NCBI GenBank assembly: GCA_938084745.1
Contig: CALKEZ010000005.1
Coordinates: forward strand, 62,001-126,000
DNA length: 64,000 nt
Source of the DNA: an uncultured Gammaproteobacteria bacterium
GTDB lineage: Bacteria; Pseudomonadota; Gammaproteobacteria; Eutrophobiales; Eutrophobiaceae
Reading direction: 5' to 3'
Below, in pieces: positions 1-59,168 of the stretch; within the stretch, counting starts at the first letter, position 1; each line of letters opens with the position of its first letter. The position numbers and the translations under genes are program-made. The notes beneath the pieces were generated by a model. The model made no database searches. It was not told where the DNA came from and saw only the letters and a list, made by a program, of their open reading frames with translations.

Positions 1-3000
1 ATCGTAATGTCACCTATGAAGAACTGGTCGAATCCTATACCGAAGCCTTACGCGGCTTGATTGATGGCGGTGCCGATCTGATTCTGGTTGAGACTATATT
101 CGATACCCTGAATGCCAAGGCCGCGCTTTTCGCTATTGATCAATATTACGAAGATCATCAGGTCAATCGACCGATTATGATTTCAGGCACGATTACCGAT
201 GCCTCTGGACGAACATTAACCGGACAAACAACCGAAGCCTTCTGGAATTCGATCAGACACTCGAATCCACTTACAGTTGGTCTAAATTGTGCTCTAGGTC
301 CCAATGACTTACGTCAGTATATTGAAGAACTTTCTAGCTTTTCGCAGTGCTATATTAGCGCCCATCCAAACGCCGGATTACCGAATGAATTTGGCGAATA
401 TGACCTCGATGCGGATCCTATGGCAGTCCATATCCAGGAATGGGCAACATCAGGATTATTAAATATTGTCGGCGGTTGCTGTGGCACCTCGCCGGCCCAT
501 ATCAAGTCCATGGCCAGGGCCGTAGCAGGTATTGCCCCGAGGCAGCTACCCAAGCTTCCAATTTATCAACGACTGAGCGGACTCGAACCATTTAATATCA
601 CGCCCGATGTTAACTTCGTGAACGTTGGTGAACGTACCAACGTCGCCGGTTCACCCCGCTTCCTGAAACTGATTAAAGAAGATCAGGATCTGGATGCGGC
701 ACTGGAAGTGGCGCGTCAGCAGGTAGAGAACGGCGCCCAGATTATCGATATCTGTATGGATGAAGGCATGCTCGAATCCGAGCAATTAATGGCCGACTTC
801 CTAAAACTGATCGCCTCGGAACCCGATATCAGTCGCGTACCGATCATGATCGACTCGTCTAAATGGAGTGTTATTGAAGCTGGCCTGCGATGTGTGCAAG
901 GAAAAGGCATCGTCAATTCGATCAGCTTAAAAGAAGGCGAAGAGAAATTCATCGAACACGCCAAACTGGTTAAACGTTATGGTGCTGCGGTGGTAGTGAT
1001 GGCCTTTGATGAAGCAGGCCAGGCCGATACGACCGAACGCCGTTTTGATCTGTGCAAACGTTCCTATGACATCCTGGTCAACAAAGTCGGATTTGCACCG
1101 GAAGATATCATCTTCGATCCGAATATCCTGACCGTGGCTACCGGCATGGAAGAACACAATAACTATGCGGTTTCCTTCTTTGAAGCCACGCGGTTAATTA
1201 AAGAACACTTACCGCATGCATTGGTGAGTGGCGGTCTCAGTAATGTGTCATTTTCATTCCGCGGGAATAACCCGGTGCGTGAAGCCATGCACACGGCCTT
1301 TCTCTACCACGCCATTCAGGCTGGCATGGACATGGCCATCGTCAATGCCGGACAACTCGGTATCTATGATGAGATCCCGAAAGATTTACTGGAATACATC
1401 GAAGACGTTTTATTGAACCGTCGCCCTGATGCCACTGATCGATTGGTCGAGTTTTCCGAAACGGTAAAAGGCGGCGCCGCAAAAGAGAAAATTGTCGACC
1501 TCGAATGGCGCAAAGGCAGCGTCGCAGAACGATTGGCACATGCCCTGATAAAGGGTATCGCAGACTACGTTGAAGAGGACACCGAAGAAGCACGACAACA
1601 AGCCGCAAAACCCATCCATGTGATTGAAGGACCTTTAATGGATGGTATGAATATCGTTGGCGACCTATTCGGTGCCGGCAAAATGTTCTTACCCCAAGTG
1701 GTTAAAAGTGCCCGCGTCATGAAAAAAGCCGTGGCCTATTTAATCCCCTTCATCGAAGCAGAAAAGGGCGAAGGTGACAGAGAAAGTAATGGCAAGATCA
1801 TCATGGCCACAGTTAAAGGTGATGTGCATGATATCGGTAAAAATATCGTCGGCGTCGTTTTGCAGTGTAATAACTTTGAAGTATTCGATCTTGGCGTGAT
1901 GGTGCCCGCACAAAAAATACTGGATGCCGCGCGCGAACATAATGCCGACATCATCGGCTTAAGTGGCCTAATCACACCGTCGCTAGATGAAATGGTGCAT
2001 GTCGCCAAAGAAATGCAACGACAGGGTTTTGATCTGCCGTTAATGATTGGTGGTGCCACTACATCACGCGCACATACTGCAGTAAAAATTGATCTCGGTT
2101 ATGACCATCCCGTGGTTCATGTTAAAGATGCATCACGCGCAGTCGGTGTTTCGACCAAGTTAATCAGTGATGTAATGAAAGCTGATTTTGTGAAAGAGAT
2201 CAGCGCCGAATACGATACCCTGCGTGAACGCCACGCTGGCAAACAACAAAGGATAAAATGGTTAACGCTGGAAGAAGCGCGAGATAATCGTGCAACTCTT
2301 GATTGGGCTAACTACACGCCGATAAAACCTAAACAACTCGGCGTACACGTATTTGAAGATTACCCGCTGGCTGAACTGGCTGACTGTATCGATTGGACGC
2401 CATTCTTTGTGGCCTGGGAACTGGCAGGAAAGTATCCAAGAATTCTGGAAGATGAGATCGTTGGTGAAGAGGCAACGCGCCTGTTCAACGATGCAAAGGC
2501 GATGCTGAAAAAAATCGTCGACGAAAAATGGTTTACCGCGAAAGGTGTTTATGGACTTTTCGCTGCAAATTCCATCGGGCATGATGATATTGAAGTCTAT
2601 ACCGATGAGAAACGTAATGGTTTATTAACAACAATACATTCTCTACGCCAACAAACGGTTAAACCACCCGGACAGGCGAACTACGCCCTGGCCGATTTTA
2701 TTGCACCAAAAGAAACAGGCGTTGAAGATTATTTTGGCGCCTTTGCCGTGGCGACGGGTTTCGGTATTGAAGAAAAAATAACCACCTTTGAAGCAGATCA
2801 TGATGACTATAGCGCCATCATGGTAAAAGCACTTGCCGATCGTTTAGCCGAAGCCTTTGCTGAACGCCTACATGAGAAGGTAAGAAAAGAATTCTGGGGT
2901 TATGCCTCAGATGAAGTGCTCGATAATGAACAACTCATCAGTGAAGCCTATCAAGGCATACGCCCTGCGCCCGGTTATCCTGCTTGCCCGGATCACACTG

Positions 3001-3254
3001 AAAAAGGATTGCTGTGGAAATTGCTTAAAGTTAAAGAAAATACTGGAATAGAAATCACGGATTCATTTGCCATGTATCCAACAGCCGCAGTCTCCGGCTG
3101 GTATTTCTCACATCCTGAATCAAGATACTTTGGTTTAGGCAAGATCAATCGTGACCAGGTAAAAGACTACACGCATAGAAAAGGAATGGACTATAAAACT
3201 ACGGAACGCTGGCTCTCGCCAAACCTAGGTTACGACCCGGATGATACTGAATAA
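1..3254 (+). CDS. metH: Cobalamin-dependent methionine synthase, 5' end missing
   Basis: Cytosolic B12-dependent methionine synthase, which moves a methyl group from methyl-tetrahydrofolate to homocysteine. The reading frame is open from base 3, so the start lies outside the window; about 1083 residues remain of a protein usually near 1230. The zinc/homocysteine domain shows its cysteines in VGLNCALGP (codon at 288) and GGCCGT (codons at 477 and 480). The pterin-binding domain follows ([11 protein letters not shown]), then the cobalamin cap and the B12 domain with GDVHDIGKN, whose His codon at 1827 is the lower axial cobalt ligand. The C-terminal SAM-dependent reactivation domain carries [15 protein letters not shown]. 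All modules are intact and the frame is unbroken. A hairpin terminator follows. Family assignment is secure. Confidence 0.98.
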
Positions 3255-51948: not shown

Positions 51949-53424
51949 ATGTTCGAACTGGCCGAATTGGGACATAAACTCTCTAAGGCAAAATATAAAA
52001 AACGTATACCAACGCTTCGAACCCAATTACTCGAAGTTCAAAATAGGCTAACCGAGGTAAACTTTCCCGTTTTAATCCTCATTTCAGGCGTTGATGGCGG
52101 TGGTAAAGGCGAGATCATTAATTTGCTCAATGAATGGATGGATCCAAGAGGCATTCAGACACATGCCTTCGATGTTCCCAGCGAAGATGAATTAAAACGA
52201 CCACCACACTGGCGTTACTGGATGGCGCTCCCCGGCAATGGTGAGATCGGTATATTTATCGGCTCCTGGTATAGCGACCCCATTGCCAAATGTATTAGCG
52301 GGAAAATTGACTATGCCGATTTAGATGCAAGTCTGGCGCACGTTAAAAATATCGAACGTGAACTGGCCGATGATGGAAGCCTCATCATCAAATGCTGGAT
52401 ACATATGAGCAAAGAAAGACAAAAAGAAAAGTTAAAAGCCTATCAAAAAGATCCCGATACAAGCTGGCGAGTTACAAAAAAAGATCTCAAACATCTGAAA
52501 CTCTACGATAAATTTGCCAGTATTGCTGAACGTGTTATCAGGGAAACAAGCACGGGGCATTGTCCCTGGTTAATCGTTGATGGTACAGATATCAAGCACA
52601 GCAGTATCACTGTGGCTGAACATATACTTGATCGCATCAATACACACATCGATCTGAGCAATCAGAAAACACCGCCCCCAAAAGAAAATGTAGACATCAT
52701 TGAAAAAGATATCAGTTTATTAAAATCCTTAAATCTGGATAAAAACCTGACCAAGGCGCAATACAACAAACAATTAGAAAAATATCAGGGCAAACTAAAC
52801 CGGCTTGCTCGCGAAGCCCGACTCAAAAATGTATCGTCCACACTGGTCTTCGAAGGCTGGGATGCCGGAGGTAAAGGCGGTGCCATCCGACGTATCACAC
52901 ATGCACTCGATGCAAGACAGTATCGGGTTATTCCTATCGCTGCACCGACCGATGAAGAAAAAGCGCACCATTACCTATGGCGTTTCTGGCGGCATGTTCC
53001 TAAAGCAGGACAAATAACCATCTATGATAGAAGCTGGTATGGCCGGGTACTGGTAGAACGCGTTGAAGGTTATGCCGCAGAGGAGGAGTGGTTCAGAGCC
53101 TATAAAGAAATCAATGATTTTGAAGAAGAGCTCACCGAAGCAGGGGTACTTATTAACAAGTTCTGGTTACATATCAGTAAGGAAGAGCAAGAAAGACGTT
53201 TTAAAGAACGCGAACAGATCAGCTATAAAAAATACAAAATTACCGAAGAAGATTATCGTAATCGGAAAATGTGGGGCCAATATGAAGCCGCCGTTGACGA
53301 TATGGTGACCCGGACGAGTACAGAATACGCCCCATGGCATCTGATAGAAGCGAATGACAAACGTTACGCCAGGATAAAAATCTTACAAACATATTGTGAG
53401 ACATTGGAAAAACAGCTCGGATAA
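51949..53424 (+). CDS. pap: Polyphosphate:AMP phosphotransferase (PPK2 class II)
   Basis: Cytosolic enzyme that phosphorylates AMP to ADP using polyphosphate. The 491-residue protein has two PPK2 domains, as in Acinetobacter Pap: first ISGVDGGGKGEIINLLNEW (about 35-240) and second FEGWDAGGKGGAIRRITHAL (about 300-490), each with the Walker-A-like GGGKG/AGGKG. The second domain has YDRSWYGRVLVERVEG, matching the active lid region. The last helix carries ARIKILQTYCETLEK. The promoter holds a perfect FNR-type box, so nucleotide recycling from polyphosphate may be turned on by oxygen shortage. Two terminator hairpins follow. Confidence 0.96.
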   Translation: MFELAELGHKLSKAKYKKRIPTLRTQLLEVQNRLTEVNFPVLILISGVDGGGKGEIINLLNEWMDPRGIQTHAFDVPSEDELKRPPHWRYWMALPGNGEIGIFIGSWYSDPIAKCISGKIDYADLDASLAHVKNIERELADDGSLIIKCWIHMSKERQKEKLKAYQKDPDTSWRVTKKDLKHLKLYDKFASIAERVIRETSTGHCPWLIVDGTDIKHSSITVAEHILDRINTHIDLSNQKTPPPKENVDIIEKDISLLKSLNLDKNLTKAQYNKQLEKYQGKLNRLAREARLKNVSSTLVFEGWDAGGKGGAIRRITHALDARQYRVIPIAAPTDEEKAHHYLWRFWRHVPKAGQITIYDRSWYGRVLVERVEGYAAEEEWFRAYKEINDFEEELTEAGVLINKFWLHISKEEQERRFKEREQISYKKYKITEEDYRNRKMWGQYEAAVDDMVTRTSTEYAPWHLIEANDKRYARIKILQTYCETLEKQLG

Positions 53425-53589: not shown

Positions 53590-56500
53590 ATGCTTCGTTT
53601 CTTGCCAGTTGCCCTACTCTCCCTTTTATATATCAATACGGCTTACGCTGATCTGTATAGCGCCAGTAATGCCTTATCACGTGGTGATTATGACACTGCC
53701 GTTGCTGAATTTACAAAGCTGGCTGAAAACGGTAACGATAAAGCTCAGGCTAATCTGGGTTATATGTACTATGCCGGCGAAGGTTTGGCACAAGACTATC
53801 AACAAGCCGTCTACTGGTATCGCAAGGCTGCTGTTCAGGGTAATAAAGATGCGCAGTATAATCTGGCTGTCTCCTATGCCTTCGGTGAAGGTGTCGAACA
53901 AGACTTAACTGAAGCGGCCATTTGGTACCGACGCGCCGGTGAACAAGGACATGTTGTTTCTCAGTATAGCCTGGGTATCTCCTACGCCTATGGTGAAGGC
54001 GTACCGCAAGATCAGAAAGAAGCAGCCCAGTGGTTCAAAAAGGCAGCAGATCAAGGCTATGCACGAGCACAAGTTCATCTAGGCAGTATGTATCATACTG
54101 GCGAAGGTGTAGAACAGGATTATGCTGAAGCCGTGCGCTGGTATCGCATGGCCGCCGATCGCGGTGATGCAACAGCACAATATAATCTTGGTACCATGTA
54201 TCGTTCAGGTAAAGGCGTTGAACAGAATTATGCGCAGGCAAAGCGTTGGTACAGACAATCAGCCGATCAGGGCTATGCAGCTGCACAAAATGAACTGGCA
54301 AGCCTGGAACGCTCTGCCGGCGCAAATGTCGCGACTCGAACTGTACAAGAGAAACCAACATTATTTCCTGCTGAATCTGCGGCAGAAATAATTCAGGAAC
54401 CACTCTCGGATGTGTCTACGACGGAAGTCATAGCAGAAACCGAAGAACCCGCCCAGGCAGAAAAGACCGTAACGAACGCAACAAACACACCCGAGATAAA
54501 ACAAACTAGTGCAGCAGTGAATGCGGAAGTAACCACAAAGAAACCCCTTTTCACGGTAGATAAGAAAGACCTTTTAACACTGGATAATTCGCAACTCGAT
54601 ATCCCTGTCCCCATTACAGAACCTGAAACAGCCGCTCAACAAATTCCAGAAATTGAGGAAGCAGTCACAACTGAAGTTGAGACACCAGTCAAAAAAGAAA
54701 TAGTCGAAACAGCTGTTGAACTTGAAGATGACACTGCCGTAATTAATAACAAGGTTGAAGCACAGGTAGTGACGATAGAAAATGTGGTTGACGAGCTTCC
54801 AAAGCCTGGTGCTGACAAGCATGAAGTATCAGCAATGCACCGCGCCTTGGGCATGCCACAACCCGAACCTAAAGATAAACAGAAACAAGGTAATCTGTTT
54901 TCTACTATCGGTAATTTATTTGCCACTGATAAGAAATCAAAAACTGAAAGTGCCTCGAAAAATCTGGAGACCGATAGTCCAGTTGCTGAAACTGCAGCTC
55001 TTATAGAAGAGACATCTGAAACAATTGCAGAACAACCCGATGTTATAACTGCGACAGAAAATGAAACTATTCCGGAACCAGAGCCTCAAGATGACCTAGT
55101 CGAAGAAGCCCCATCAGAGAATGCTTATGTTGTTGCAGAAGATCCTACTCTGCTATCAACACCAACAGTAACAAGTCCTGAAGCAGATATTCCAGAAGCA
55201 GTTGCCAAAGAGACTCCAGCCGAAGAACCTTATGTTGCCGCGGAAGATCCTACCCTACTATCTGCGCCTGCAGAAATACCTCCTGCAACTGTCATTAAGG
55301 AAGACGTTGCTGAAGAACAGTTATCCGGAAAAGCGTATATCGCTGAGGAAGATCCCACGCTTTTATCAGAACCAATCGAGAGCATAGAAGTTGGGGAAGA
55401 AGCTAAGTCTTCTGCTGGCTTCTTATCTGCACTTGGCAATCTCTTTTCCGGAAAAGACAAAGAACCCAAGCAGGCCCTGTCCGAGGAACAACCTCAGGCA
55501 GTCGAAGATGAACAGGTATTAATTGCCAAGATTGATGAACCCGCGCCTATTACAGATGAAATTGACCTCGCACAAGATGCTGAGAGAGATTTATCTCAGT
55601 ATAGTGTTGCTGCGGGCCAGCGTGCCTTAACAACAGGTGATTTTACTGCAGCGGAAAAACAATTCAGGCCATTAGCAGAAGCTGGCGACAGTGCGGCACA
55701 GGCTAAATTAGGTTCGCTCTATTATGCCGGCAAAGGGGTTGAGCAAAGTTTTATTAGTGCTTTTGTATGGTATAAAAAAGCCGCCGATCAGGGTAATGTC
55801 GATGCTCAATACAGTATTGGCAATATGTATTTATTAGGCGAAGGTATAGAACAGAATAATGAAGAAGCCGCGAAATGGTATGCCCTTGCCAGTGAGCAGG
55901 GACATATAGCCGCAACGAATAACCTCGCGAATTTAAAAAAGCTTGAGACTTTGTCACAACAGAATCTCGAAGCAACAACCCCCTCAGCAGAAGTCATTGC
56001 TGATACAGAAGCTGTTGAAAAAAAAGTCATAGAGGCTGTTACTCTCGATAACAATATAGAAATAGAGACTAGTGCAGAAGTTGCAGAGGCAACAACATCG
56101 ACTGAAAAGTATGTCGCTGCTAAAGACCCTGCACTTGCTACGACATCGAGTGAAACTGCTATGGCACCTCAAGCTCAGGATGAATCTGCAGGCGGTTTCT
56201 TATCTGCGATAGGTAATCTCTTTTCAGGTAAAGACAAAAAAAGCAAAACACCCTTGTCTGAAGATCAACCACAGGCGATAGAAGAAGATGAATCAATCGC
56301 TATGTCTGGAGAATCAGCAGCCGTCGTTGATGAAGTTGAACTTGTTGAGGAAGCAGAAAAGAGTTTACCGGAATACAGCGTTGATTCTGGTCGTAAGGCC
56401 CTAAAGAATGGTGACTTCAATGAAGCAGCCAGACAATTTATCTCATTAGCCGAAGCTGGTGATAGCGAAGCACAAGCCCATCTCGGTTCTCTTTATTATG

Positions 56501-58278
56501 TTGGCAAAGGTGTTGAGCAAAATACTAATGAGGCATTTGCCTGGTATAAAAAAGCCGCAGACCAGGGCAATGTCGATGCCCAGTATAGTATGGGTAACAT
56601 GTATCTACTGGGTGAAGCTGTCGAACAAAATAATCAGGCTGCAGCAGAATGGTACAGCCTCGCTAGTGCGCAGGGTCATGTTGCTGCAAAAAATAATCTT
56701 GAAAACCTAAAGAAGCTTGAATTATTAAACCGTCAAAACCAATTAAACGATGAGCTTGTCGCAGAGCAAGATGTCAGTGCCGAGTCCGCTCCGAACATCA
56801 ATCAGAGCCTGAGAGAGATCGCTCCAACCGAAGCTGTTTCTTCAGAAACCACAAGCAGTGTAAAGAGCTATGCTGCGGGTGAAGCACCAGCGACGGATAC
56901 ATTACAATCTTACGCCGATACTGCAAACTCGGACGCAACAGTTGCAGAGACAATCATTAACGACGTAAATGCATCATCACCAACGATTGCCACCGAGACA
57001 ACAGCAAAGCCGAACGAGACGACTGAACAATCAGCATTCTTTAAAAGTTTATTCGGTGACCCTGATTCAACAACCTTAAAAGAAACAGAAACCATTAATC
57101 TTGATGAAGATTCTGAAGCTGTTGCAAAAAATAAAACAGAAAAAAGCGTAGTAGAAACTGATAGCGAACCTGAAGATCCTCCTGTCACTGCTGCCACCGA
57201 CACACCAGCAGTAACCTCCGAAAAATCCGCTGGGCTGTTTGGCTTTTTAGGAAACATGTTTTCCTCTGACAAACAAGATAAAAATATTGATGATGCTGAC
57301 GATATAAGTGAACAAGCAGACGAAATTGCCATGCTGGAAACTGAACCCGCAGAGAGTTCAATCGAAAATAAGACTGTTGCAATCAAAGAACAAGCTCTTG
57401 AAAAAGTAAGCGGTAACATTCCAGAAACTGAGTTTGAGCGACTAAGCCCTTTGGCTACACAAGGTGACATGGCAGCGCAGTACAAATTAGGCACACTTTA
57501 TTATTCAGGCAGTGGTGTGGAACAGGATTATTCGCAGTCCGCTCTCTGGTATAGACGCGCAGCACAACAAGGTAATGCCGATGCACAATATAGTCTGGGC
57601 AATATGTACTTGATGGGCGAGGGTTTAGAACCTGATGAGACTCTAGCCGCTTATTGGTATGCGCTGGCTGCAGATCAAGGCCATTTATCAGCACAGCATA
57701 ACCTGACGAATTTACAGAAATCAATCACACCAACTGAGCAACTGGCAATTGAAACCAGCACCGTCGTCAATGAAAAAATGGCCGATATTAATGAGGATGA
57801 TGTCGATGAATCGGAATCAAGTATCGATACAACCGGCAAAACAGAGTATGAACAAGGTTTGGCGTATGCCTTCGGCGATGGTGTAGCACAGAATGATCGA
57901 ATGGCGTTCAATTTATTTTATGCCGCTGCTGAAAAAGGTTATACCCTGGCCCAATATAAAGTGGGCGTCGCTTTCGCCTATGGTGAGGGTGTTCGGCAAG
58001 ATCAAAAACAGGCTGCCGAGTGGTATCGGAAGGCCGCTGAGCAAGGCTATACAACTGCTCAGAGAAATCTGGCAATGATGTATCTTGATGGTAACGGTAT
58101 ACAACAAGATAAAATTCAGGCTTTAGCCTGGTATAATATCGTTGCGAGTCAGGGTAACGCCCTGGACATACGCCGCAGGGATCTTCTTGAGAAAGAACTC
58201 TCCGAGATCGAATTATCCCAGTCGCAAGAAATATCGAATCAAATAGCAAATCGCTTGAGTAACAACGCCTCGCTCTAA
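53590..58278 (+). CDS. Giant modular Sel1-repeat protein
   Basis: A 1562-residue secreted or periplasmic protein with a Sec signal (to AYA). It has about 14 Sel1 repeats in five blocks: five near the N-terminus (about 55-235), then 2+2+2 in duplicated modules, and three near the C-terminus (about 1420-1530). Long acidic, Glu/Ala/Thr-rich linkers separate them and are probably disordered. The linkers repeat short motifs: EDPTLLS three times (about 515-600) and a GNLF-type motif, G-F-L-x-x-x-GN(L/M)F(S/A)xxDK, at about residues 438, 610, 869 and 1218. Residues 610-868 are duplicated as 869-1126, and a third, more divergent copy begins at about 1218. Likely a surface or periplasmic scaffold; function unknown. 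Confidence 0.85.
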   Translation: MLRFLPVALLSLLYINTAYADLYSASNALSRGDYDTAVAEFTKLAENGNDKAQANLGYMYYAGEGLAQDYQQAVYWYRKAAVQGNKDAQYNLAVSYAFGEGVEQDLTEAAIWYRRAGEQGHVVSQYSLGISYAYGEGVPQDQKEAAQWFKKAADQGYARAQVHLGSMYHTGEGVEQDYAEAVRWYRMAADRGDATAQYNLGTMYRSGKGVEQNYAQAKRWYRQSADQGYAAAQNELASLERSAGANVATRTVQEKPTLFPAESAAEIIQEPLSDVSTTEVIAETEEPAQAEKTVTNATNTPEIKQTSAAVNAEVTTKKPLFTVDKKDLLTLDNSQLDIPVPITEPETAAQQIPEIEEAVTTEVETPVKKEIVETAVELEDDTAVINNKVEAQVVTIENVVDELPKPGADKHEVSAMHRALGMPQPEPKDKQKQGNLFSTIGNLFATDKKSKTESASKNLETDSPVAETAALIEETSETIAEQPDVITATENETIPEPEPQDDLVEEAPSENAYVVAEDPTLLSTPTVTSPEADIPEAVAKETPAEEPYVAAEDPTLLSAPAEIPPATVIKEDVAEEQLSGKAYIAEEDPTLLSEPIESIEVGEEAKSSAGFLSALGNLFSGKDKEPKQALSEEQPQAVEDEQVLIAKIDEPAPITDEIDLAQDAERDLSQYSVAAGQRALTTGDFTAAEKQFRPLAEAGDSAAQAKLGSLYYAGKGVEQSFISAFVWYKKAADQGNVDAQYSIGNMYLLGEGIEQNNEEAAKWYALASEQGHIAATNNLANLKKLETLSQQNLEATTPSAEVIADTEAVEKKVIEAVTLDNNIEIETSAEVAEATTSTEKYVAAKDPALATTSSETAMAPQAQDESAGGFLSAIGNLFSGKDKKSKTPLSEDQPQAIEEDESIAMSGESAAVVDEVELVEEAEKSLPEYSVDSGRKALKNGDFNEAARQFISLAEAGDSEAQAHLGSLYYVGKGVEQNTNEAFAWYKKAADQGNVDAQYSMGNMYLLGEAVEQNNQAAAEWYSLASAQGHVAAKNNLENLKKLELLNRQNQLNDELVAEQDVSAESAPNINQSLREIAPTEAVSSETTSSVKSYAAGEAPATDTLQSYADTANSDATVAETIINDVNASSPTIATETTAKPNETTEQSAFFKSLFGDPDSTTLKETETINLDEDSEAVAKNKTEKSVVETDSEPEDPPVTAATDTPAVTSEKSAGLFGFLGNMFSSDKQDKNIDDADDISEQADEIAMLETEPAESSIENKTVAIKEQALEKVSGNIPETEFERLSPLATQGDMAAQYKLGTLYYSGSGVEQDYSQSALWYRRAAQQGNADAQYSLGNMYLMGEGLEPDETLAAYWYALAADQGHLSAQHNLTNLQKSITPTEQLAIETSTVVNEKMADINEDDVDESESSIDTTGKTEYEQGLAYAFGDGVAQNDRMAFNLFYAAAEKGYTLAQYKVGVAFAYGEGVRQDQKQAAEWYRKAAEQGYTTAQRNLAMMYLDGNGIQQDKIQALAWYNIVASQGNALDIRRRDLLEKELSEIELSQSQEISNQIANRLSNNASL
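55417..56970 (+). repeat. Tandem 777-bp duplication inside the giant Sel1 gene
   Basis: Residues 610-868 (55417-56193) and 869-1126 (56194-56970) are diverged copies: FLSALGNLFSGKDK and FLSAIGNLFSGKDK, LSEEQPQA and LSEDQPQA, DQGNVDAQYSIGNMYLLGE and DQGNVDAQYSMGNMYLLGE, NLKKLETL and NLKKLELL. The period is exactly 259 codons. Confidence 0.8.
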
Positions 58279-58367
58279 TTCAATACCCCCTCGTTATTAT
58301 CGCCATTGCCGTGTCAGTATCGTTTTTTTCTGGCATTATTAAGTCTTACCTATCTAGCGCTTGATTT

Positions 58368-59168
58368 ATGATCGATCCAAACATAAAAAATGTAATTGAA
58401 ATTGAAGGACTGAATTCCTATTACGGTGAAAAACAGATCCTCTCTAATATTTCATTACAGGTGGAACGTAAAGAAGTCATGGTCATTATGGGACATAGCG
58501 GTTCTGGTAAAAGCACTCTGCTTCGCCATATGATTGGTTTAAATACCGCTGAATCGGGTTCAATAAAATTATTAGGTAAAGAAATAACCGGTTTAAATCG
58601 TAAAGAATTATATGAATTAAGAAAACATATTGGTGTTGCTTTCCAGAATGGCGCCTTGTTCAGTTCGATGACATTACAGGAAAACGTTGAATTACCTTTA
58701 CACGAACACACCAGACTTGATCACAATACAATCCGCATTATGTCCCGGCTTAAACTTGAGCTGATGAACCTGAGTGACAACGAATCCCTGATGCCAGCTG
58801 AACTTTCTGGTGGCATGTTAAAACGCGCCGGTCTGGCAAGAGCAGTTATTATGGATCCGGAGATACTTTTTTTTGACGAGCCTTCTGCAGGTCTTGACCC
58901 GGTAACCTCTGCTGAGCTGGATGATTTAATTTTACAGTTACGTGATGCGTTGAATATGACTATCATTGTCGTCACACATGAGTTGGAGAGTGCCTTCAAG
59001 ATTGCGGACAGAATTACCGTTATTGATAATGGACAACAAATCATCACAGGCAATAAACAGACCATTAGAAATTCTACCGACAACAGAATCGTCAGTATGC
59101 TTGAACGAAGAGCGATGAACGAGAATATTGACGCGGATGATTACCTGAATAAATTGACACGATCTTGA
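58368..59168 (+). CDS. mlaF: Phospholipid transport ATPase MlaF
   Basis: ATPase of the Mla system that maintains outer-membrane lipid asymmetry. 266 residues; Walker A GHSGSGKST, signature LSGGMLKRAGLARA, Walker B ILFFDEPSAGLDP, switch His in VVTHE. The QNGALFSSMTLQENVELPL stretch is typical of MlaF. It is followed 6 bp later by mlaE. No mlaB (STAS) gene follows in this group. Confidence 0.94.
   Translation: MIDPNIKNVIEIEGLNSYYGEKQILSNISLQVERKEVMVIMGHSGSGKSTLLRHMIGLNTAESGSIKLLGKEITGLNRKELYELRKHIGVAFQNGALFSSMTLQENVELPLHEHTRLDHNTIRIMSRLKLELMNLSDNESLMPAELSGGMLKRAGLARAVIMDPEILFFDEPSAGLDPVTSAELDDLILQLRDALNMTIIVVTHELESAFKIADRITVIDNGQQIITGNKQTIRNSTDNRIVSMLERRAMNENIDADDYLNKLTRS

Follow-up and report, generated by a model that had tools for sequence, protein, structure and literature searches.

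The 64,000-nucleotide stretch of gammaproteobacterial DNA analysed here (the window) encodes a large Sel1 protein, SELBIG (53590–58278, forward strand; 1562 amino acids, 169 kDa, mature pI 4.25), which, judging from sequence comparison, is moderately likely to be a Sel1 scaffold of the periplasm that is held to a membrane at several points and is connected with lipid homeostasis of the envelope. The protein unites a Sel1 scaffold with a repeated putative anchor resembling the membrane-targeting sequence (MTS) of RNase E. In the mechanism proposed, SELBIG would reach the periplasm by export and there form a chain of rigid Sel1 solenoids connected by lengthy linkers that are acidic and disordered. 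Every long linker bears one to several hydrophobic motifs of the RNase E MTS type, 8–11 residues in length. Each motif would form a short amphipathic helix on the phospholipid surface of the putative target membrane, and the Sel1 blocks would offer protein-binding grooves to presumptive clients. The platform thus built would most likely organize or support phospholipid transport by MlaFED/MlaC or other outer-membrane upkeep, a role that is proposed because SELBIG precedes mlaF, mlaE and mlaD almost wherever both exist.

Architecture of the protein

Pfam recognizes essentially Sel1 alone in SELBIG (E = 1.1e-128). PF08238 reaches 415 bits, with a cut-off of 30.7, over 13 stretches, and a model built for this study resolves 14 repeats arranged in five blocks. 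The chain opens with a Sec signal peptide (53590–53649, forward strand; residues 1–20), whose sequence is MLRFLPVALLSLLYINTAYA followed by D; cleavage falls between AYA and D and there is no lipobox cysteine. The signal peptide was called by eye from the sequence and by comparison with orthologs, which have in common a hydrophobic N-terminus and a conserved aspartate after the cleavage site. An N-terminal block of five repeats (53731–54270, residues 48–227) is the most conserved part of the protein, with 58–91% identity among orthologs. It is followed by three Sel1 pairs (pair 1, 55684–55899, residues 699–770; pair 2, 56458–56673, residues 957–1028; pair 3, 57463–57678, residues 1292–1363) and by a C-terminal block of three repeats (57829–58152, residues 1414–1521), all on the forward strand. 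The four linkers are 471, 186, 263 and 50 amino acids long and have a pI of about 4.1, the first carrying a charge of −65. AlphaFold models, computed from an alignment of 6 sequences and with a pTM of 0.43–0.53, show confident Sel1 solenoids (pLDDT >90 in the N-terminal block) and disordered linkers. SELBIG is, in short, an exported bead-string protein of Sel1 solenoids and acidic disordered linkers.

Foldseek matches the N-terminal block to solved Sel1 structures with E values from 1e-14 to 1e-4. The solenoid fold is shared with an Oxalobacter formigenes protein (6ok3), an antigen of uropathogenic E. coli (4bwr), HcpC (1ouv), LpnE (6deh), LceB (8sxq) and AlgK (3e4b), whose chains, unlike that of SELBIG, are mostly continuous solenoids. 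To our knowledge, none of these proteins contains hundreds of acidic linker residues with repeated MTS-like motifs.

A repeated hydrophobic motif in the linkers

Four MTS-like motifs are present on the forward strand: NLFSTIGNLFA (motif 1, 54892–54924, residues 435–445), GFLSALGNLFS (motif 2, 55417–55449, residues 610–620), GFLSAIGNLFS (motif 3, 56194–56226, residues 869–879) and GLFGFLGNMFS (motif 4, 57232–57264, residues 1215–1225), the last being the top-scoring copy in SELBIG. They are joined by a short-form motif, AFFKSLFG (57034–57057, forward strand, residues 1149–1156). The sequence-only reading had described the motif as GNLF, occurring four times and always ahead of a Sel1 pair. The four letters do occur at residues 434, 441, 616 and 875, but the first two positions belong to a single instance (NLFSTIGNLF), and GNLF is merely one spelling: GNMF at 1221 and AFFKSLFG at 1149, both of which had been overlooked, bring the instances to five. 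The placement was misjudged, as two instances lie in linker 1 and two in linker 3; in some other orthologs the motif also precedes the C-terminal block of three repeats.

Across the orthologs, mostly represented by metagenome-assembled genomes (MAGs), the long form follows the consensus G-[LFV]-F-x-x-[ILF]-G-x-[LMF]-F (GLFGFIGKLF-like) and the short form G-F-F-x-[RKS]-[LIM]-F-[GS] (GFFxRLFG; peptide spelling KKKGFFGRLFGKKD). The seed rows of the matrices were hand-picked from the SELBIG family, which leaves the tests on RNase E, BamE and BamB described below unaffected. In the ortholog set the long-form matrix finds 79 windows at ≥12 bits, against 0.35 in shuffled sequences. Copy number ranges from 0 to 7 per ortholog, most complete family orthologs carrying 1–7, and copies have been lost in reduced genomes: L134, a member of the genus, has none and L135 has one. 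Absence of the motif from orthologs, which would have spoken against the sequence-only reading, is not what is seen, as nearly all of them keep it, and it is retained across genera although the remaining linker cannot be aligned. Its copy number has risen independently in separate lineages through frequent duplications within linkers that enclose the motif, giving repeats of 94 amino acids in L131 and of 67 in L145. This retention amid linker drift, together with the expansion in copy number, supports the earlier suggestion that the repeats may serve multivalent binding.

The surroundings of the motif are distinctive. Lysine and arginine make up 20.4% of the residues beside it and 5.7% of the rest of the linkers, a 3.6-fold enrichment, and the proportion is higher beside the motif in 28 of 33 ORFs. 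The helical moment of the core of 8–11 residues exceeds that of same-letter permutations modestly (median rank 0.18), and in the AlphaFold models the motifs appear as short low-confidence helices within disorder, with a pLDDT of about 33. A profile search of the own genome with the motif returns the SELBIG gene alone at E <0.01; family-wide, one extra match was obtained, a fragment of the same protein (G022:C66). The possibility that the motif is a general feature of the proteome was discarded, since matches to the DNA pattern for GFFx[RKSN]hF[GRS] outside the gene are about as numerous as those to the reversed-pattern control. A match in a secretin, GFFGNLFKS (L155), lies inside the conserved secretin domain and was therefore taken as unrelated structure.

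Duplication of modules and linker repeats

The tandem duplication of a 259-codon module claimed in the sequence-only reading is borne out: the offset is exact (616 to 875) and the DNA copies align. Copy A (55411–55946, forward strand) comprises the end of a linker, motif 2 and Sel1 pair 1; copy B (56185–56720, forward strand) comprises motif 3 and Sel1 pair 2. The two are 69.6% identical in DNA (E = 4e-61; gene positions 1822–2357 and 2596–3131), and their Sel1 pairs differ by 22%. The same three-pair layout is found in two independent MAGs of the sister species L051 and L052, which are 57–58% identical to SELBIG, and the other species have one Sel1 pair fewer. SELBIG pair 1 is 88% identical to pair 1 of L051/L052 and 78% to its own pair 2, which implies that the duplication predates these species. 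With the layout shared and the copies diverged, an assembly artefact is excluded.

The three AEDPTLLS-type repeats reported earlier are present in linker 1 (55138–55368, forward strand; residues 517, 552 and 587), with a repeat unit of 35 amino acids. The EDPTLL repeat is confined to the genus and occurs in 2–5 copies in five species.

Likeness to the membrane-targeting sequence of RNase E

The resemblance of the linker motif to the MTS of RNase E was tested with matrices trained solely on SELBIG-family linkers, the test set consisting of 23 RNase E proteins of the family and that of E. coli. In 24 of 24 proteins, one or other of the two matrices, short and long, places its top-scoring window on the MTS. 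The short matrix alone locates it in 23 of them, with a shuffle p ≤0.02, L278 being recovered by the long matrix only. In E. coli RNase E the best window is GLLSRFFG at residue 569; family examples include GLISRLFG, GLIARLFG (own genome, L279) and GLFASIGKFFS (L276). Among the RNase G-like paralogs used as a control, 6 of 7 score ≤3.5 bits and thus have no motif.

The MTS of E. coli RNase E spans residues 568–582, QPGLLSRFFGALKALFS; substitution of F575 or F582 by glutamate largely releases the enzyme, both residues being critical (PMC12594526). The sequence forms an amphipathic helix with clustered aromatics and basic residues on its flanks, binds protein-free lipid vesicles and, in simulations, prefers anionic lipids (PMC4372235). 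SELBIG motifs share with the MTS of gammaproteobacterial RNase E a G-[LF]-[LIF]-x-R-[LF]-F-G core, the clustering of aromatic and aliphatic residues and the basic flanks (PMC4435900, PMC4372235, PMC12594526). In both cases the site lies in a long disordered region and is multivalent, through the tetramer in RNase E and through repeats in SELBIG. There are also differences: SELBIG has a signal peptide and is directed to the periplasm, a single chain of it holds the motif in several copies, set between the Sel1 blocks, and the core is 8–11 residues long, against about 15 in the RNase E MTS. A single copy, being shorter than the 15-residue MTS, may by analogy bind weakly or not at all. Against tethering it should also be considered that strongly acidic linkers, the basic flanks excepted, disfavour anionic bilayers.

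Gene order and the Mla system

Downstream of SELBIG lie, on the forward strand, mlaF (ABC ATPase, 58368–59168), mlaE (permease, PF02405, 59175–59963) and mlaD (MCE protein, PF02470, 59973–60425), followed by the convergent mlaC (periplasmic lipid carrier, PF05494, 60877–61515, reverse strand). SELBIG is directly upstream of same-strand mlaF/E/D genes in 27 of 30 assessable loci, with a gap of 24–225 bp in the 19 loci measured; in L147 and L150 it is mlaE, not mlaF, that comes directly after it. The three loci with no downstream mlaF/E/D (L055, L143, L146) come from assemblies that have no MlaE match, and in L141, where the contig end is too near for the neighbourhood to be assessed, the genome likewise has none. 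SELBIG is kept in the absence of MlaE in G002, G020, G028 and G032, and the motif is kept where mlaFED is missing (L141, L143, L146, L055). A correlation between presence of the motif and mlaFED was considered and rejected: it held for the long form only, and L141, L143 and L146 have 4–6 copies in the absence of MlaE.

In the small-genome genus g17 (L187–L190) SELBIG is absent from the site, a PEP-mutase-like gene adjoins mlaF, and mlaFED and mlaC are retained. Co-occurrence is therefore not obligatory, each partner being kept without the other in some genomes. Between SELBIG and mlaF, 28 bp before the latter, lies a conserved dyad, GTGTCAG-N12-CTGGCATTATT (58311–58340, forward strand), found in one copy per genome in 6 of 12 genomes of the genus. 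The dyad may act as promoter or operator for mlaFED, which would then be transcribed from a promoter of its own. The consensus reads GTGYCAG-N12-CTGGCATYATT, with the same site in L051–L054, L131–L134 and L148, and a weaker dyad precedes mlaF in g17 genomes that have no SELBIG (L188, L190). A small transmembrane ORF between SELBIG and mlaF was dismissed, its reading frame not being conserved in relatives. Directly upstream of SELBIG is a gene for a PPK2 polyphosphate kinase (51949–53424), whose conservation is limited to g6 and some members of the genus.

SELBIG and the MlaFED/MlaC system are tied by gene order, the genes of the latter being directly downstream of SELBIG or convergent to it. 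The literature searched mentions no Sel1 subunit in papers on Mla and nothing relevant on Sel1 with an amphipathic helix, and we know of no Mla experiments in this bacterial group. Because g17 keeps mlaFED alone and a dyad stands before mlaF, the tie is suggestive and not obligatory. SELBIG could accordingly be a membrane tether with no link to Mla, its adjacency to mlaFED reflecting conserved gene order only. This reading agrees with the independent losses of SELBIG and mlaFED, with the dyad that mlaF has of its own and with relatives of the same design in other families that sit away from mlaFED; it appears rather unlikely, as the order is kept in most genera of the family from which this MlaE has not been lost. 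The preferred reading, a tethered scaffold with a possible functional tie to Mla, makes SELBIG a candidate extra part of the Mla phospholipid pathway.

The ligand of the motif

The same type of motif recurs in two other envelope proteins of the family. BamE and BamB are outer-membrane lipoproteins. The C-terminal tails of family BamE contain a conserved GFFGRL(F/L/W)D (L381, L364–L393; GFFGRLFD in the own genome), GFFGRL or close variants being present in most of the 20 readable tails, and the BamB proteins of the genus and of g17 end in SFFGRFLNIFSGDDE-like tails (L334–L352). With RNase E in the cytoplasm, the motif is thus present in both compartments that the inner membrane separates, an indication of lipid more than of a single protein partner; its probable ligand is the phospholipid bilayer, available in the cytoplasm as in the periplasm.

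The main competing explanation, already implicit in the sequence-only reading, is that a single hub protein in the periplasm, perhaps associated with Bam, binds the motif as a docking peptide, and that the match to RNase E is convergence of hydrophobic peptides. Three periplasmic proteins of the family carry the motif (SELBIG, BamB and BamE), its invariant glycine and phenylalanine positions seem stricter than a lipid helix needs, and multivalent linear-motif scaffolds are common. Yet the same matrix finds the cytoplasmic MTS of RNase E in every one of the 24 proteins, including those encoded by the same genomes, and no periplasmic protein could bind it there; the basic flanks and loose spelling (L, I, F and M interchange) suit lipid. 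This explanation is judged unlikely.

If lipid is the ligand, MTS-type anchors, known from cytoplasmic RNase E, would here be multiplied in an exported scaffold and in the tails of BamE and BamB, which suggests a reusable and evolvable means of holding soluble proteins on periplasmic faces of the envelope. A bolder extension, which we regard as quite improbable, is that one amphipathic motif is reused across the envelope (in SELBIG and in the BamE and BamB tails) as the periplasmic equivalent of the RNase E anchor, and that SELBIG bridges the inner and outer membranes through many weak lipid contacts around MlaFED/MlaC. If true, phospholipids would move along a tethered path, or within a corral, of a kind that has not been described for E. 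coli.

It is very unlikely that the motifs dock in the Sel1 grooves of SELBIG itself, within or between molecules, so that chains self-associate. Grooves of the Sel1/TPR type do bind peptides and a motif is present in every long linker between Sel1 blocks, but neither motif 1 nor motif 4 docks on a Sel1 block in the AlphaFold models (motif pLDDT about 33, alignment of 6 sequences), and the copies in RNase E, BamB and BamE would be left unexplained. Least likely of all is the idea that the linkers are drifting low-complexity spacers in which functionless copies spread by slipped duplication: duplications of motif-bearing linkers are frequent (L131, L145 and the EDPTLLS repeats) and copies are lost in the reduced genomes L134 and L135, but the motif persists amid linker that is unalignable across genera, far exceeds the shuffled expectation (79 against 0.35) and recurs in the unrelated A/P/T-rich linkers of other families.

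Distribution and relatives

Close SELBIG orthologs outside the family were sought among 274 genomes of the class and none was found. Matches of the C-terminal block profile outside the family were rejected as orthologs (about 260 versus 129 bits), the best being ordinary Sel1 proteins. Minimal forms occur in genus g15 of the family and consist of two Sel1 repeats, two motifs and then a Sel1 block (L239, L240).

It had been supposed that no described protein has such a design. This stands insofar as none was found in the literature searched; the same layout does, though, recur elsewhere in the class, in two further families. Their exported Sel1 giants, not described before, are L324 and L325 (1130 and 1097 amino acids) and L328 (1173 amino acids). 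Like SELBIG, they have Sel1 blocks set apart by disordered linkers, in which the motif is spelled GFFKRLFG and GLFSFFGKLFK; unlike in SELBIG, the linkers are A/P/T-rich, the order of the blocks is reversed, with the block of five repeats at the C-terminus, and no mlaFED is found beside them.

Two further segments of the first disordered linker are conserved. A second linear motif, KKPLFTVDKKDLLTLD (54538–54585, forward strand, residues 317–332; near-invariant form KKPLFSVDKKDLLTLDSSQLDIP), occurs in single copy in 11 orthologs, is unstructured in the model and has no known match. Just ahead of motif 1, at residues 410–424 (the EVSAMHRALGMPQP region), five members of the genus share the short segment VSAMHRAMGLPQPKP, which forms a weak helix in the model.
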